Shown here: positions 29,053-35,038 of the stretch, piece by piece | How the letters are laid out: each line of letters starts with the position of its first letter | How positions within the stretch are numbered: the stretch's first letter is position 1 | Assembly (NCBI GenBank): GCA_028819435.1 | Contig: JAPPLK010000094.1 | Span: forward strand, 53,801-89,688 | Reading direction: 5' to 3' | Length of the DNA: 35,888 nt | From: Nitrospira sp. | Lineage (GTDB): Bacteria > Nitrospirota > Nitrospiria > Nitrospirales > UBA8639 | Program-made: the position numbers and the translations under genes | The notes under the pieces: generated by a model | What the model was told of the DNA's origin: nothing | The model's input: the letters and a program-made list of their open reading frames with translations, nothing else | Databases searched by the model: none

Positions 29053-30024
29053 TCAGAGCAATCGCAGGCCATGATGAAAAATTTCCTGTGTGAATTCTTC
29101 CCACTTTTCGGGATCGTTTATAATCTCGGAAAGATCAAATATCTGTTCGAGTCGAAATCCCAAGGCCTTCAAACGCTTTCCCATCTCTGCCGTACAAACT
29201 CCCACAATCAAATAATCCTTTGATGTGTTGGGTGTTTCTCCCGCACTCTTTTGAAACGCCCCAAGCCGTTCAAGTGCCCCGGCTGGGTCCGTTCCGGCCT
29301 TGATTTCAATCGTTGCGACAATCTGCCATTCCCCATTTCGCGCTTTCCTTTTGAACGCAATGTCCGGGTCGATACCGAAAATCATCCGCACCTCGTTTGA
29401 TAACATCCAATCCTTCGTCGTTTCCATCGCATCTGTTCCGGTGTAGGGGCGCAGATCAATCCGACTCTGCGTTTGGAGCCACGCAACCAATGCGTCCTGA
29501 ACCGCCTTTTCCCCCTCTCGTCCGATGATATTCCGAATCGAACCATCCGCCGTAATACCTATCGTTGCCAAAACATTCCGGTATCCGTTTTCCAATACCC
29601 AATCGTCTGCATCCATAATAATTGATGAGATAATCGAGTTGTACAATCGTGCGATCTTTTGACATTTTTCCGTTGTCGGACGGCGGTTTTTTGGCCATGA
29701 CCCGTCTTCCCAGGAAACCACACTTCCTGCAATTGCCTGAACCCGTTTCAGCGATAAAAGGGCTATCCCCCGATAGTGCAATGATACATCTGGGCTCTGC
29801 TGCAACATAATCGGATGGACAAAGACAAACTTCGGGTCTATCCCTGAAGAAATGACGTGCTGCCAAGCCTCTTGCACGATTGCCAGTTCCACAAGGTCTC
29901 GTTCGTAATCTGACGCGCTCAAGGCAAACGAGTCGATTTTCTTCCTCGCCTTTAGTTCAGCACGTTCCCGTATTCGGCGAGAAATGATAGTGGCACGGGT
30001 TTTTGACTCTTGCAGTTTATCCAT
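29053..30024 (-). CDS. XcyI-family type II restriction endonuclease
   Basis: A 323-residue protein resembling the XcyI family (enzymes recognising CCCGGG). Landmarks are an N-terminal helical stretch (MDKLQESKTRATIISRRIRE), the middle SIIMDADDWVLENGYRNVLA, and a PD-(D/E)xK core reading GIDPDIAFKRKARNGEW followed by ATIEIKAGTDPAGALERLG (Asp, then E-x-K). ATG 30024 overlaps the methylase stop by 8 bp; the longer open frame upstream runs inside the methylase gene and was rejected. The methylase-then-endonuclease order lets protection come first. Specificity for CCCGGG is inferred from family resemblance. Confidence 0.82.
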   Translation of the reverse strand: MDKLQESKTRATIISRRIRERAELKARKKIDSFALSASDYERDLVELAIVQEAWQHVISSGIDPKFVFVHPIMLQQSPDVSLHYRGIALLSLKRVQAIAGSVVSWEDGSWPKNRRPTTEKCQKIARLYNSIISSIIMDADDWVLENGYRNVLATIGITADGSIRNIIGREGEKAVQDALVAWLQTQSRIDLRPYTGTDAMETTKDWMLSNEVRMIFGIDPDIAFKRKARNGEWQIVATIEIKAGTDPAGALERLGAFQKSAGETPNTSKDYLIVGVCTAEMGKRLKALGFRLEQIFDLSEIINDPEKWEEFTQEIFHHGLRLL

Positions 30025-31492
30025 CAGGCTTTTTCCAATGATAGACGCATTTGCGTATTTCGTGCCTCCCGAACCGCCCCATCTGCTGACTGGAATTGCC
30101 TTTTCCGCGCTCAAGCATCCGAATGGTCTGACACCGGAAACCGGATTGCTCTGCAAAATCTGATAAAATCAGGTCAACCGGAACCTCCTCCCCATGATAC
30201 CGAACGTTGTCATTCACCATGAAGACGCTTCCACCCGGTCTGACCACCCGACCCAACTCCCTTATGACAACAGCCATCTCCGTAAAATAATTTTTCACAA
30301 GTCGGATCACGTTGCGATTGCTCAATTCGTGGGCTTGTTCAGTCAGATTGCCGAGAATTTCTTGAAGGGCGGGCTGCGCATCAGCCATCCGAAATGCTTC
30401 CTTTGCGAGTGAGTCCTCACCGTAGTCTTTCTCGATAGACGTGCGTTTTGAGCCGTTCTCTACGGTTGCCGACAACAACGACTGCCGTAACGCTTTCAAC
30501 TGTTCGTGTCCGTAGCCAAGATATTCCAACTCCAACGCATACGTCCGCGTGTAGTCATATCGGTTGGCATAGGGCGGCGACGTGACAACGGCGTCTATCG
30601 AGTTTGCCCGTAGCTTTTTGAGTTCGTTGAGACTCGATCCATTAACAAGAGTAGGGATATGACCGGCATATGTCCTCTCCAGTATGGGGACGTCCGCAAT
30701 GATTTCGGACAGACGCTTTCCCAAGGCTTCCCTAACGGTCGGAAGCGATCCTTTATCCAACTTGGGGCTCACGACCCGTCCGGATTGAGGGTCCCATCGA
30801 AGAAACTGGCCGTCTTTCCGCGTATAACTCACGTCCTCCAAAATACTGACACAAGCAAGCGTCAAGACAGTTGCAATTGCCGGATCGTCAATTTTTGAGA
30901 TGAACATCTGCGCCCGCATCAATGCAGATTCGGTCTTCCGGGGATACGCGCCTTGCGTAATCGGCATCTGCTCCATGCGGTTCCCTGTACCGCGAACACT
31001 ATACCGGACAAGAGCTTTCGCTTGTTTTTCCAGGCAACCCTTATCTATTCCATTCGACGCATACGCCACCGCCATGGCAGCCAGATTCCCGACTGGCATA
31101 ATTTCAATCCCTGTCCCAACGTGTCCGAGGCCAGCAGCAGCCACAACCGTCGTCCCTACCCCAGAAAATGGATCGAGAACATGAGTTTCTTGTTGTTGGG
31201 GGAGAAGCGTCCGAACAAGGGACCTGGAAAAACCTTCCTTGTATTTGAACCACCGGAATCCTGGTTCATGCTTATTTCCTTGATAGGACACCAGTTTCCG
31301 GTTGAGACCGACATCTACCAGCATCCGATCACAGAATCGACGAAACAAGTCGTTCCGCTCCTGGGTCTTTTTTCCATTAGAGGACAAGACGACAGGTAGC
31401 GGAAAAGCCCTCTGCAAAGAGCCATCTAACCTGACGTCTCTCCCTATCTGATCAAAGCCAAACTCCTGTTGCTGTAGAAGCCCGTCCTTCAT
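30017..31492 (-). CDS. DNA methyltransferase of the XcyI-like R-M pair (SPPY type)
   Basis: A 491-residue SAM-dependent methylase. The SAM-binding motif I is HVLDPFSGVGTTVVAAAGLG (about residues 105-124) and the catalytic motif IV is VVTSPPYANRYDYTRTYALE (about 305-325). SPPY is typical of N4-cytosine (and some N6-adenine) methylases, as in the SmaI/XcyI group. Motif I precedes motif IV. ATG 31492 was chosen over a TTG four codons upstream because GGGGAAGGG immediately precedes it. It is the first gene of the pair and overlaps the endonuclease by 8 bp. Confidence 0.88.
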   Translation of the reverse strand: MKDGLLQQQEFGFDQIGRDVRLDGSLQRAFPLPVVLSSNGKKTQERNDLFRRFCDRMLVDVGLNRKLVSYQGNKHEPGFRWFKYKEGFSRSLVRTLLPQQQETHVLDPFSGVGTTVVAAAGLGHVGTGIEIMPVGNLAAMAVAYASNGIDKGCLEKQAKALVRYSVRGTGNRMEQMPITQGAYPRKTESALMRAQMFISKIDDPAIATVLTLACVSILEDVSYTRKDGQFLRWDPQSGRVVSPKLDKGSLPTVREALGKRLSEIIADVPILERTYAGHIPTLVNGSSLNELKKLRANSIDAVVTSPPYANRYDYTRTYALELEYLGYGHEQLKALRQSLLSATVENGSKRTSIEKDYGEDSLAKEAFRMADAQPALQEILGNLTEQAHELSNRNVIRLVKNYFTEMAVVIRELGRVVRPGGSVFMVNDNVRYHGEEVPVDLILSDFAEQSGFRCQTIRMLERGKGNSSQQMGRFGRHEIRKCVYHWKKPDG

Positions 31493-31579
31493 GCCCTTCC
31501 CCAAATTCCTGTCTGCTGTACTACACTATCAGTTCCTAATAAGGAAAACGTTTCCCCTTCATCTTTCTAACACAAACTG

Positions 31580-32149
31580 TCAATACGACCTACTTCTTCT
31601 GTTCTTGGCCCATGCCTTCGCATTTGTAATGCGAATTCTGTATTTCAATAAATCTTGACTCACACCATAGTATTCGGCCGCATCTCGTAGACTAGAGAAC
31701 CCTTCGATCGCATAAAGCGCTGCTACATTCGGAACCAATAATGTAAACCCAAGTTCATTTGCCTCTTGTTCACGGATTGGATCGAAGTTCCTACAACTGC
31801 CATTCAACAATGGAGGTCTAGGCGGATGATATAAGATAATGTGAGCTAATTCGTGACTAATGTTTGAGTGTTGACGGTTTGGATGTTGGGAATCATTGTG
31901 GATGATTTCATTGTATATGCCATCCACCAGTGTAAAGGCAGAGAATGTGGAATTTCCTTCCTCTTGGAAATGCCGTTTTATATCGCGGGGAATTGTTGGA
32001 TGTTCGGAGAGAGCATGAATCGGTACAGCAAGGTGTTCAGCCAAACGAAAGGGGTTGAGAGGCTCTTGCTCCTCAAGGCCAAGTTCTTCTCGGAATTCTA
32101 GAGCATATTCCTCGGCTTCTTTGCGAAAACCACGTCTAAGTCTTACCAC
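31580..32149 (-). CDS. ImmA/IrrE-type zinc metallopeptidase
   Basis: A 189-residue soluble protein with the HExxH zinc motif in NISHELAHIILYH (about residues 98-110) and a downstream Glu in REQEANELGFTLLVP, the typical ImmA/IrrE arrangement (H-E-x-x-H...E-x-E-A). Family members cleave or inactivate a partner XRE repressor on a stress or phage signal. It starts at GTG 32149 with GAGGAAAGG upstream and overlaps the XRE gene by 14 bp, so the two are coupled. It most plausibly relieves repression of the divergent ubiquitin-like operon. Confidence 0.88.
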   Translation of the reverse strand: MVRLRRGFRKEAEEYALEFREELGLEEQEPLNPFRLAEHLAVPIHALSEHPTIPRDIKRHFQEEGNSTFSAFTLVDGIYNEIIHNDSQHPNRQHSNISHELAHIILYHPPRPPLLNGSCRNFDPIREQEANELGFTLLVPNVAALYAIEGFSSLRDAAEYYGVSQDLLKYRIRITNAKAWAKNRRSRSY

Positions 32150-32501
32150 GACCTTTCCTCATATGTTTGTAAGCCGACTTGAGCATCGTGTCCAAGGCTT
32201 TGGCGCTTTCTTCGCTCAGATTGCGGTCAGCACGAAGAAGTGCTGTGATTTCCGCCAGCGGTTCAGCTTTAGGCCGCCCTTCTTCAGCAGGCCTATAGAA
32301 CTTCTTGACATCAACACCCGACCAACTCGCCAGAGCTGCCAGACCATCTATGTCTGGTCGTTTCCCTTGTCGCATCCGTGTGAGTGTGGATGCTGCGACC
32401 CCGGATTTCTTCGCTACCTGCTTCCAAGTCAGATTTTTGGCCTCCCTGGTGCCATCCAACGCTGCGTAGAAGCCTTCCGTATCAAATCGTTGATTTGACA
32501 T
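32136..32501 (-). CDS. XRE-family repressor paired with the ImmA-type protease
   Basis: A 121-residue regulator with an XRE helix-turn-helix at about 12-72 (LTWKQVAKKSGVAASTLTRM, RQGKRPDIDGLAALASWSGV). A C-terminal helical part (EITALLRADRNLSEESAKAL) probably dimerises or is the protease target. It is divergent from the ubiquitin-like operon, with 104 bp between the start codons. It is likely to bind the GCAAT/ATTGC sites in that gap. It overlaps the metalloprotease gene downstream by 14 bp. Confidence 0.88.
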   Translation of the reverse strand: MSNQRFDTEGFYAALDGTREAKNLTWKQVAKKSGVAASTLTRMRQGKRPDIDGLAALASWSGVDVKKFYRPAEEGRPKAEPLAEITALLRADRNLSEESAKALDTMLKSAYKHMRKGRGKT

Positions 32502-32605: not shown

Positions 32606-33262
32606 ATGTCAAAGCAAAATCCCGATGGCTCTTTCGAACTTGAGGTTAACGGGACCGTCGTCACTTTCAAAGATCCAGTGCCGACGGCCAGTCAAATCCT
32701 ACGAGAAGGCGGGTTCACCCCAACGGATGAGCACATTTTAATCCGACTGCAGAAAGGATCGTCAAATGCGTTGGGTTTGAATGAGCCAATAGACCTCCGC
32801 AATGGAGAATCTGCGAAGTTCCGGGCATTCAGGAGTGATCGAGTTTTCCGGTTGACCCTAGACGGCGGTGGTTTCGAGTGGGGTGAAGGCACCATAAGCG
32901 AGTCGGAACTTCGCAAATTGGCTGCGGTCGGCGATGACAAAGTTCTAGTCCTGGAACGTCGAGACGAACCAGATCGCGAACTTAATTACAACGACCAAGT
33001 CGCATTGATGGATGCTGGTACGGAACACATTCGAACCATCAAAAAGCTGATCGTCGTTGTTATAGATGGAGTCGAAAAACAGATTGATCGTGGCACCTAT
33101 AAAACCGAGCAATTGCTTGCCATTCTCGGCGTCGAGACTGGTTATCTACTCAACGTGCTGAGTGACGATGGACAACTCAAAACGTTGAATTCCGGCGACC
33201 ACGTGTCTGTCAGGGAGGGCATGAAATTCTTTAGCCAAGTGCCTTGTGGAGGATCTGCATGA
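32606..33262 (+). CDS. Multi-ubiquitin-like protein, three beta-grasp units, Gly-Gly near the C-terminus
   Basis: A 218-residue protein of three successive ubiquitin-like (beta-grasp) units. Unit 1 is about 8-66 (FELEVNGTVVTFKDPVPTAS...). Unit 2 is about 68-135 (VFRLTLDGGGFEWGEGTISE...). Unit 3 is about 137-214 (KKLIVVVIDGVEKQIDRGTY...). It matches the architecture of Multi_ubiq proteins (PF14452 as I recall it), which occur with E1, E2 and JAB genes. The last residues are VPCGG-SA: a Gly-Gly that would be exposed by removing two residues, as the neighbouring JAB peptidase could do. ATG 32606 has a strong AGGAGGG site. It is coupled to the E2-like gene by ATGA. Confidence 0.87.
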   Translation: MSKQNPDGSFELEVNGTVVTFKDPVPTASQILREGGFTPTDEHILIRLQKGSSNALGLNEPIDLRNGESAKFRAFRSDRVFRLTLDGGGFEWGEGTISESELRKLAAVGDDKVLVLERRDEPDRELNYNDQVALMDAGTEHIRTIKKLIVVVIDGVEKQIDRGTYKTEQLLAILGVETGYLLNVLSDDGQLKTLNSGDHVSVREGMKFFSQVPCGGSA

Positions 33263-33591
33263 CCAACACGGACGACGAATATAAAAAGATCAAGAGTCTC
33301 CATGAATCGGCCAAACTGACTCGGGAGGGCGGCAATCCAATCGTCCTCCTGCCGCAAGCGAGGTTTCAGTCTGCTGGGCGCGAGATCCAGATGGATTTGC
33401 TCCTCTACCCTGCCGCCCATGGCGGCTATCCAACCAGGCTCTTTTTTGAGCGTCAGATTGAAGGGCGGGGAAATAACTGGAAACAATATTGTGTTGTTGG
33501 TAGACACTGGTGGGCCTGTTCTTGGGGCGGCATTGAAGCCGACATGAGCTGGCCAGGCATGCTATGTGCGCATCTAAGAGCTGTCGAATGA
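33259..33591 (+). CDS. E2-like (ubiquitin-conjugating fold) protein
   Basis: A 110-residue protein. Position and pattern match the prokaryotic E2 family found in multi-ubiquitin operons (Prok-E2_E-like). A beta-meander (REIQMDLLLYPAAHGGYPTR, LFFERQI) is followed by WKQYCVVGRHWWACSWGGI and a helix SWPGMLCAHLRAVE. Cysteines at 78, 87 and 103 are the only thiols. C78 or C87 is the most likely site for the thioester with the ubiquitin-like protein, but which one is not decidable here. It overlaps both neighbours by ATGA. It is small for an E2, so the assignment rests partly on context. Confidence 0.75.
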   Translation: MTNTDDEYKKIKSLHESAKLTREGGNPIVLLPQARFQSAGREIQMDLLLYPAAHGGYPTRLFFERQIEGRGNNWKQYCVVGRHWWACSWGGIEADMSWPGMLCAHLRAVE

Positions 33592-34091
33592 AGACGCGAT
33601 TCAAAATTACCCGTGCGCTTCTCGCATCAATTCGACGCGACCTCGACCGCCCACACCCATTCGCATACGAACGCGTGGGCTTTATCTCGGCAGGGCTTGC
33701 TACCGCAGGTGACAATCTTCTGATCCTGGCACGCAACTATCGGCCTCTGATGGATCATGAGTATCTGCCGAATATTTCGGTTGGCGCGATGATGGGACCT
33801 GATGCAATCCGAAGCGCTCTGCAGTGGGCACTGGAAACTGGCGGAGCAATGTTCCACGTGCATACGCATGGCGGCTTCGGTGTGCCCAGTTTTAGTACGA
33901 TAGACATTTGCGAAAACGCCAAGTTTGTACTCGATTTCTTCAAAGTCGCGTCATATGCGGCTCATGGTGCAATCGTGCTCAGCAACGATGCCGTGAGCGG
34001 ACAAGTATGGTGCAACAGAAATGAGCCCTACGAATTCATTCAGGATTTTGTCGAGGTTGGTGTCCCGATTCGGAAGTGGAGGGGAACATGA
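33588..34091 (+). CDS. JAB/JAMM metalloprotease (deubiquitinase-like)
   Basis: A 167-residue Mov34/JAB-domain peptidase. JAMM residues are visible: Glu28 (FAYERVGFISAG), His92-x-His94 in FHVHTHGGFG, then Ser103 and Asp106 in VPSFSTID. This gives H-x-H-x8-S-x2-D, one residue longer than the textbook x7 spacing. The NISVGAMMGPDAIRSALQWA stretch is the following helix. In such operons the enzyme is expected to trim the ubiquitin-like precursor after Gly-Gly and to remove it from targets. It overlaps both neighbours by ATGA. Confidence 0.88.
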   Translation: MKTRFKITRALLASIRRDLDRPHPFAYERVGFISAGLATAGDNLLILARNYRPLMDHEYLPNISVGAMMGPDAIRSALQWALETGGAMFHVHTHGGFGVPSFSTIDICENAKFVLDFFKVASYAAHGAIVLSNDAVSGQVWCNRNEPYEFIQDFVEVGVPIRKWRGT

Positions 34092-35038
34092 GTCGCTTTG
34101 TTCGCCAGAGTTTCTTGGGAGTCAACAGCGAGGCTGTTCTGGACGCTACCACTGTAGGCCTTGTAGGCCTCGGCGGTGGTGGTTCACATATCGTTCAGCA
34201 ATTCGCGCACATCGGCATTGGCAGATATGTCCTTGCGGATCACGACCGAATCGATTTCACGAATACGACACGTCTCGTTGGCGGAACACTGAAAGACATC
34301 AAAAACAAGATGTGGAAAACTGAGATTGCGGCGCGACTGATCCGGAGTTTGCAACCGAATGCAGCTATCATTCAGATCCGCGATAAATGGCAGACCGCAA
34401 CGGATCAACTCAAGGGCTGCGATCTAATCCTAGGAGCGGTAGACTCTTTCGTGGAACGTGACCAGCTAGAGCGTTTCGCCCGAAGGCATCTCATCCCGTA
34501 CATCGACATTGGAATGGATGTGCATGATCTAAGGGAGAACGGTTTTCTCATCTCCGGCCAAGTGATCTTGTCAACTCCCGGCAACCCATGTTTGTGGTGT
34601 TGTGGACTTATTACTGATAAACAGCTCAAGCAAGAGGCTACCCAATATGGATTGGCCGGTGGTCGCCCTCAGGTTATCTGGCCGAACGGTATCCTGGCAT
34701 CGACAGCCGTGGGACTCGCGATACAAGTGATTACCCCGTGGTTCAAGAATCCTCCAGAATTTGCGTATGTTGAGTATGATGGGAACAAAGGAATAGTCTC
34801 CACTAGTGCCCGGATTAAAATATTAAAAAACCAAACATGCAAACACCATCCTGCAGACGAGGTTGGTGATCCATTTTTCAATATAAGTGTCCACCGGCAG
34901 CGACTTGCTGAGCAAAGAGCTAAAAGCCATCGTTGGTGGAAAATCATTCTTCGTAGGTTATTGGGCAGCAAGCCACGGCCGATCACGCTATTGCAACCGA
35001 CGACCACTCACCGAAGGAAATCATCTCTCAAATCCTGA
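34088..35038 (+). CDS. ThiF/E1-like activating enzyme
   Basis: A 316-residue E1-type adenylating enzyme. Landmarks: nucleotide loop GLVGLGGGGSHIV (24-36), DHDRIDFTNTTR (51-62) with the ribose-binding Asp and Arg finger, catalytic Lys77 in KNKMWKTEIAARL, GAVDS with the Mg-binding Asp119, and a CxxCC at 168-172 (PCLWCCG) that may hold zinc or the catalytic Cys. A later TCKHHP near 262 may complete a zinc site. The enzyme would adenylate the exposed Gly-Gly end. The last 20 or so residues (PRPITLLQPTTTHRRKSSLK) are encoded out of frame within the duplicated aroK end, so the original C-terminus was probably altered. Confidence 0.9.
   Translation: MSRFVRQSFLGVNSEAVLDATTVGLVGLGGGGSHIVQQFAHIGIGRYVLADHDRIDFTNTTRLVGGTLKDIKNKMWKTEIAARLIRSLQPNAAIIQIRDKWQTATDQLKGCDLILGAVDSFVERDQLERFARRHLIPYIDIGMDVHDLRENGFLISGQVILSTPGNPCLWCCGLITDKQLKQEATQYGLAGGRPQVIWPNGILASTAVGLAIQVITPWFKNPPEFAYVEYDGNKGIVSTSARIKILKNQTCKHHPADEVGDPFFNISVHRQRLAEQRAKSHRWWKIILRRLLGSKPRPITLLQPTTTHRRKSSLKS

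Follow-up and report, generated by a model that had tools for sequence, protein, structure and literature searches.

Which end does a ubiquitin-like protein (Ubl) offer for activation when its Gly-Gly is followed by two further residues, and is it trimmed before use? The question is raised by a 35,888-nucleotide stretch of DNA from Nitrospira sp., referred to here as the window (assembly GCA_028819435.1, contig JAPPLK010000094.1, positions 53,801 to 89,688). It encodes a multi-Ubl protein of 218 aa (32606..33262, forward strand) that ends, as originally predicted, in Cys-Gly-Gly-Ser-Ala; the codons TGT GGA GGA TCT GCA TGA occupy 33245-33262, those of Cys214-Gly215-Gly216-Ser217-Ala218 being 33245..33259. 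The original prediction took Gly-Gly for the mature end and Ser-Ala for throw-away residues, which a JAB protease would remove before activation.

The Operon and Its Surroundings

The multi-Ubl protein shares an operon with E1, E2-like and JAB proteins, and all four genes are found in the window. They lie on the forward strand in the order Ubl, E2-like, JAB, E1, and consecutive genes share 4-base overlaps. The start of the E2-like gene (33259..33591; UBC fold, 110 aa) overlaps the Ubl stop as ATGA. It is followed by a JAB/JAMM metalloprotease of 167 aa (33588..34091), which sits at the predicted place two genes downstream of the Ubl and has intact JAMM catalytic residues, and by an E1-like ThiF adenylyltransferase of 316 aa (34088..35038).

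Two divergent genes lie upstream on the reverse strand: an HTH regulator, candidate CapH (32136..32501; HTH_3 E 1.6e-7), and an ImmA/M78 metallopeptidase, candidate CapP (31580..32149; PF06114 E 4.3e-13). Of 70 homologous loci, 31 have both genes in this position, and Bub operons are reportedly under DNA-damage control by such HTH and peptidase pairs (CapH and CapP) (PMC13373217). A type II restriction-modification pair (29053-31504, reverse strand) adjoins the Ubl operon; in it an N6/N4 DNA methylase lies next to a restriction endonuclease of the XcyI type (PF09571 E 1.4e-12). The regulators upstream, together with the XcyI-type enzyme and methylase next door, suggest that the operon may be part of a stress or defence island.

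Domain Structure of the Ubl

Three matches of Pfam Multi_ubiq (PF14452; E 7.6e-21, above the cut-off) cover the Ubl, and an AlphaFold2 model built from 49 homologues (pLDDT 94) folds into three beta-grasp units, at about residues 8-78, 79-147 and 148-211, followed by the tail. The best PDB matches of the model are the multi-ubiquitin proteins 9cd2, 9d59 and 8u38 (Z 16.9-18.5); units 1 and 2 match solved multi-ubiquitin proteins, 9d59 and 9d5b among them, and the third unit (148-217) resembles ubiquitin, NEDD8 and ThiS when the predicted model is compared with known structures. In profile comparisons, the nearest relative of unit 2 is the last BubA unit (E 1.2e-18), and that of unit 3 is the last unit found in operons that combine a Ubl with a DUF6791-E1 and DUF6527 (hhalign E 3.4e-11, against 3.6e-6 for BubA).

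Which of the three units is conjugated? Polyubiquitin-like processing between units was considered and rejected on inspection of the sequence, as the unit junctions are without Gly-Gly. Among 68 operons, the 11 single-unit Ubls, whose lengths range from 85 to 126 aa, have the same end pattern as the 53 three-unit Ubls. Because a free and conserved C-terminal tail is found on the last unit alone, and because the single-unit homologues keep that tail, the last unit is likely to be the one conjugated.

The C-Terminal Tail

How well is Gly-Gly conserved at the end of the homologues? Residues were counted from the C-terminus in 68 non-redundant homologous operons, including that of the window, where the full end reads Gln-Val-Pro-Cys-Gly-Gly-Ser-Ala. 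Position -4 is Gly in 68 of 68. Position -3 is Gly in 31, Gln in 16, Ala in 10, Ser in 6, His in 2, Thr in 2 and Asn in one; position -2 is Ser in 65 and Ala in 3, and position -1 is Ser in 63 and Ala in 5. The conserved end is therefore Gly(-4)-x-Ser(-2)-Ser/Ala(-1). Three homologues have one or two extra residues, always after Ser-Ser (GGSS-K, GGSS-WA and GGSS-WR); these additions were left out of the count. In the 49-sequence Ubl alignment no column of the whole protein but G215 is invariant, and the columns of S217 and A218 are more than 90% Ser, which that of G216 is not. The conservation of Gly(-4) and Ser(-2) makes the tail clearly non-random.

Aligning homologous C-termini had been named beforehand as the test that could refute the Gly-Gly precursor. 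The alignment has Gly-Gly in only 31 of 68 sequences; the second Gly is absent in the other 37, which is the refuting outcome that had been specified, and the conserved C-terminal Gly-Gly of a ubiquitin- or SUMO-type precursor is not found in this set. Nor do the supposed throw-away residues behave as such, Ser-Ser/Ala being better conserved than the second Gly.

The two GGA codons also contain GGAGG (33248..33252, forward strand), the Shine-Dalgarno sequence of the E2-like gene, 6 nt before its ATG (33259). Gly-Gly is found in 30 of 60 loci with overlapping genes versus one of 8 with non-overlapping genes, a difference that is suggestive (Fisher p 0.06) and not independent of phylogeny, which was not removed; an overlap-driven Gly-Gly was not adopted on these numbers. 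The 8 loci with non-overlapping genes retain Gly(-4) and Ser(-2), residues that are therefore evidently maintained for the sake of the protein.

The Associated Enzymes

The predicted model of the E2-like protein (pLDDT 94) has BubB (9eae_C) as its best fold match, with Z 9.7 over 107 of 110 residues; TSG101 UEV and E2 enzymes match at lower Z. Y57, R60, W74, W84 and S88 are invariant in 70 sequences (Ser88 in 70 of 70). A conserved catalytic Cys was sought in the same 70 sequences, and no Cys column reaches 50%, the best being position 50 with 31 of 70. Cys87, adjacent to Ser88, was rejected as a catalytic candidate, since relatives have Pro, Phe, Met or Ile there. Profile alignment to Prok-E2_E (hhalign E 5e-6) places S88 on the Ser of WQRWSRH. 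The Ser of the WxRWSRH motif thus has a counterpart, the RH part is absent, and PF14462 has no match on the window protein and matches one of 66 family members, at E 0.14.

The JAB residues E28, H92, H94, S103 and D106 are conserved in 70-71 of 71 homologues. In the E1, the CxxC...CxH pattern (C168, C171, C251, H253) is the only site of invariant Cys and looks like a zinc-binding site; therefore no Cys relay is apparent in this enzyme. An E1 with conserved adenylation-domain residues stands beside the Ubl in all loci examined, and its profile matches BubCD (E 6e-19).

Relation to Bub and Other Systems

What kind of system is this? It has in common with Bub and class 6e a Multi_ubiq Ubl, a JAB, a related E1, regulators of the HTH and peptidase kind, and a UBC-fold E2-like protein without Cys and with a conserved Ser. 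The Bub reference used here comprises a BubA-BubB fusion, the JAB-E1 fusion BubCD, and DUF6527 (PDB 9ea4/9ea5/9ea8/9eae/9eav). In contrast to these fusions, the window operon has four separate genes. A DUF6527 gene is found neither in the window nor in any of 88 loci of its branch, and is present in 18 Bub or JAB-less loci. Pfam does not match the window's E2-like protein, and the last Ubl unit is of another type than that of Bub. The kind itself, class 6e / Bub, is known; the window's branch, with its four genes, its lack of DUF6527 and an E2 unrecognised by Pfam, is a variant of it. Bub conjugation reportedly runs through oxyesters. The invariant Ser88 fits this chemistry and provides a lead by analogy. 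For class 6e, E2-like domains that lack Cys were considered inactive by Iyer et al. (2006; PMC1779556).

The Ubl ends differ as well: G-x-S-S in the window's branch, where the invariant Gly is followed by three residues, two of them conserved, and a single Gly before the E2 in Bub. The Bub Ubl and E2 may be fused, as in an Enterobacter plasmid protein (..LTPKDVNNG-EESPAKRR..). In the solved Bub complexes the Citrobacter construct BubA 155-229 ends ..DVNNG at Gly229, directly before the fused E2, and BubCD is the JAB-dead D104A enzyme, Asp104 being the Asp of the JAMM SxxD motif. A Synechocystis Ubl ends TTTEG, and a fused Ubl-E2 of Methylomagnum has TTEG at the equivalent place. When the window's tail is structurally aligned with ubiquitin Gly76 or BubA Gly229, its register varies by a residue or two, and tail length was set aside as evidence. 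The genome of the window carries a second multi-Ubl operon, of the standard Bub kind, with a Ubl ending TAQQGR, a Prok-E2_E protein with WQRWSRH, and a JAB-E1 fusion.

The operons of Ubl, DUF6791-E1 and DUF6527 are a subset of class 6e (in Acinetobacter, Rhizobium and others) whose last Ubl unit is homologous to that of the window. They have no adjacent E2-like or JAB gene, and a search for JAB homologues beside the Ubl in these loci found none; DUF6791, fused to their E1, has been speculated to be a JAB substitute (PMC1779556). All 13 of the Ubls sampled, from proteobacteria, cyanobacteria, Bacteroidota, actinobacteria and one member of the window's order, end in Ser without Gly-Gly; their tail, x-[KQRE]-Ser, does not have the conserved Gly of the window's branch. 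In the sequences compared, a Ser end is common to the JAB-containing operons and to this related JAB-less class. In most of the 12 JAB-less loci inspected for gene layout, about 26 bases belong to both the Ubl and the E1 gene, read in different frames, and this overlap covers the conserved Ser end.

Type II Bil, CBASS Cap2 and archaeal Ub-Rpn11 follow the same E1-E2-JAB logic as the window operon and use a Cys-based E1 and E2. No such catalytic Cys is conserved in the window's family. The multi-ubiquitin filament proteins (9d59, 9d5b, 9cd2 and 8u38; Gong et al. 2025) are like the window Ubl in the fold and sequence of units 1 and 2 and differ in the last unit and C-terminus.

Activation with or without Trimming

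Is the modifier cut before it is activated? The chances are about even that the operon encodes a diverged Bub-type, Cys-free four-gene conjugation pathway that activates its last unit untrimmed and passes it through S88, with JAB as a deconjugase. The E1 would adenylate the C-terminus of the third unit as made, at G-x-S-[S/A], with no prior trimming to Gly-Gly. Next, the UBC-fold E2-like protein would take over the Ubl on its invariant Ser88, as an oxyester, and hand it on to the target. JAB would remove the Ubl from targets and might also trim the rare homologues with one or two extra residues. Units 1 and 2 would not be released; in solved relatives, units of this kind form dimers and filaments. 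Every one of these reaction steps we infer from gene content, conserved residues, predicted folds and the C-terminal pattern. The more far-reaching claim, of a pathway free of both Cys catalysis and a Gly-terminated modifier, with Ser-Ser/Ala as the activated end and an E2 carrying the Ubl on Ser, is tentative and falls somewhat short of an even chance. If the E1 does activate the Ser-terminated form, then the Gly terminus thought to be essential for ubiquitin-type modifiers would not be general.

Several points count against activation without trimming. JAB might recognise the strict Ser-Ser as a motif, and DUF6791 might take the place of JAB in the JAB-less operons (PMC1779556). Moreover, the solved Bub Ubl construct stops at a single Gly in the presence of the JAB-dead enzyme, and a cut after Gly215 is therefore a real alternative. 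JAB would then discard x-Ser-Ser/Ala to leave ...Pro-Cys-Gly as the mature end, like the single-Gly Bub Ubls; the invariance of Gly(-4), the Citrobacter, Synechocystis and Methylomagnum ends and the intact JAB active site all agree with this. The published constructs make it a serious rival by analogy, if on the whole an unlikely one: the tail is nearly fixed in length and sequence, unlike a discarded propeptide, and the JAB-less sister Ubls, which are of the same unit type, have a terminal Ser and no Gly-Gly at all. The same sisters speak against the original prediction that JAB removes Ser-Ala and exposes Gly-Gly. The window and 30 of 67 other relatives do have Gly-Gly plus at least two residues, JAB is present and intact, and archaeal Rpn11 cleaves its Ub precursor exactly after Gly-Gly (PMC6043591). 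However, 37 of the 68 homologues would end Gly-Gln, Gly-Ala, Gly-Ser, Gly-His, Gly-Thr or Gly-Asn after such a cut, and the Gly-Gly codons of the window double as a Shine-Dalgarno sequence. A discarded end that is more conserved than the second Gly, together with JAB-less sisters ending in Ser, argues against trimming to Gly-Gly, which appears improbable.

It is still less probable that the Ubl is left unconjugated, as a filament-forming scaffold or signal with the tail as a docking peptide for an E1/E2/JAB complex. The likeness of units 1 and 2 to the filament-forming 9d59 and 9d5b would suit such a role, but tail and operon are unchanged in the homologues with a single unit (11 of 68), and every locus examined pairs the Ubl with an E1 that retains its adenylation-domain residues. 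Least credible of all is a functional Cys214. The original prediction rightly placed a Cys directly before Gly-Gly and envisaged a thioester, disulfide or cross-link. Cys is found there in 22 of 68 homologues, replaced elsewhere by V, Q, G, D, A, T, R, K, S or E; so sporadic a residue is unlikely to serve generally in a thioester or disulfide, and Cys214 was set aside as a conserved catalytic or cross-linking residue. It does tend to co-occur with an extra Cys beside the E1 CxxC (15 of 22 versus 6 of 45), but this association tracks one E1 clade and is not independent; the E1 Cys was rejected as a partner of Cys214 because it follows that clade.

Distribution and Neighbouring Genes

A single search of 84,980 genomes, made with an alignment of E1, yielded 80 loci, nearly all of which keep the order Ubl, E2-like, JAB, E1. 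The hosts are Alpha-, Beta- and Gammaproteobacteria, Acidobacteria, Verrucomicrobia, Bacteroidota and others, and further operons are found on plasmids. The E2-like protein had no match in phages, and no Ubl or E1 relative was found in viral_contigs. A full-scoring E1 of this branch is present in only one of 14 genomes of the genus searched, that of the window; therefore, the operon is accessory. A close relative in the same genus has the same regulator and methylase neighbours, and its Ubl is truncated after unit 1 and runs into a remnant of the E1 start (positions 1501-1803 of its locus), the trace of an internal operon deletion.

JAB and E1 are fused in six loci from Bacteroidota and Melainabacteria; these fusions within the four-gene branch link it to BubCD. 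An AAA ATPase and/or an S8 subtilase, neither of which was seen downstream in the window, directly follows the E1 in ten loci (of the 69 loci with enough sequence downstream, 8 have S8 and 6 have AAA), and these genes are possibly an unfolding and degradation partner. The S8/AAA loci mainly have Cys-Gly-Gly or Cys-Gly-Ala ends, and they include two annotated plasmids.
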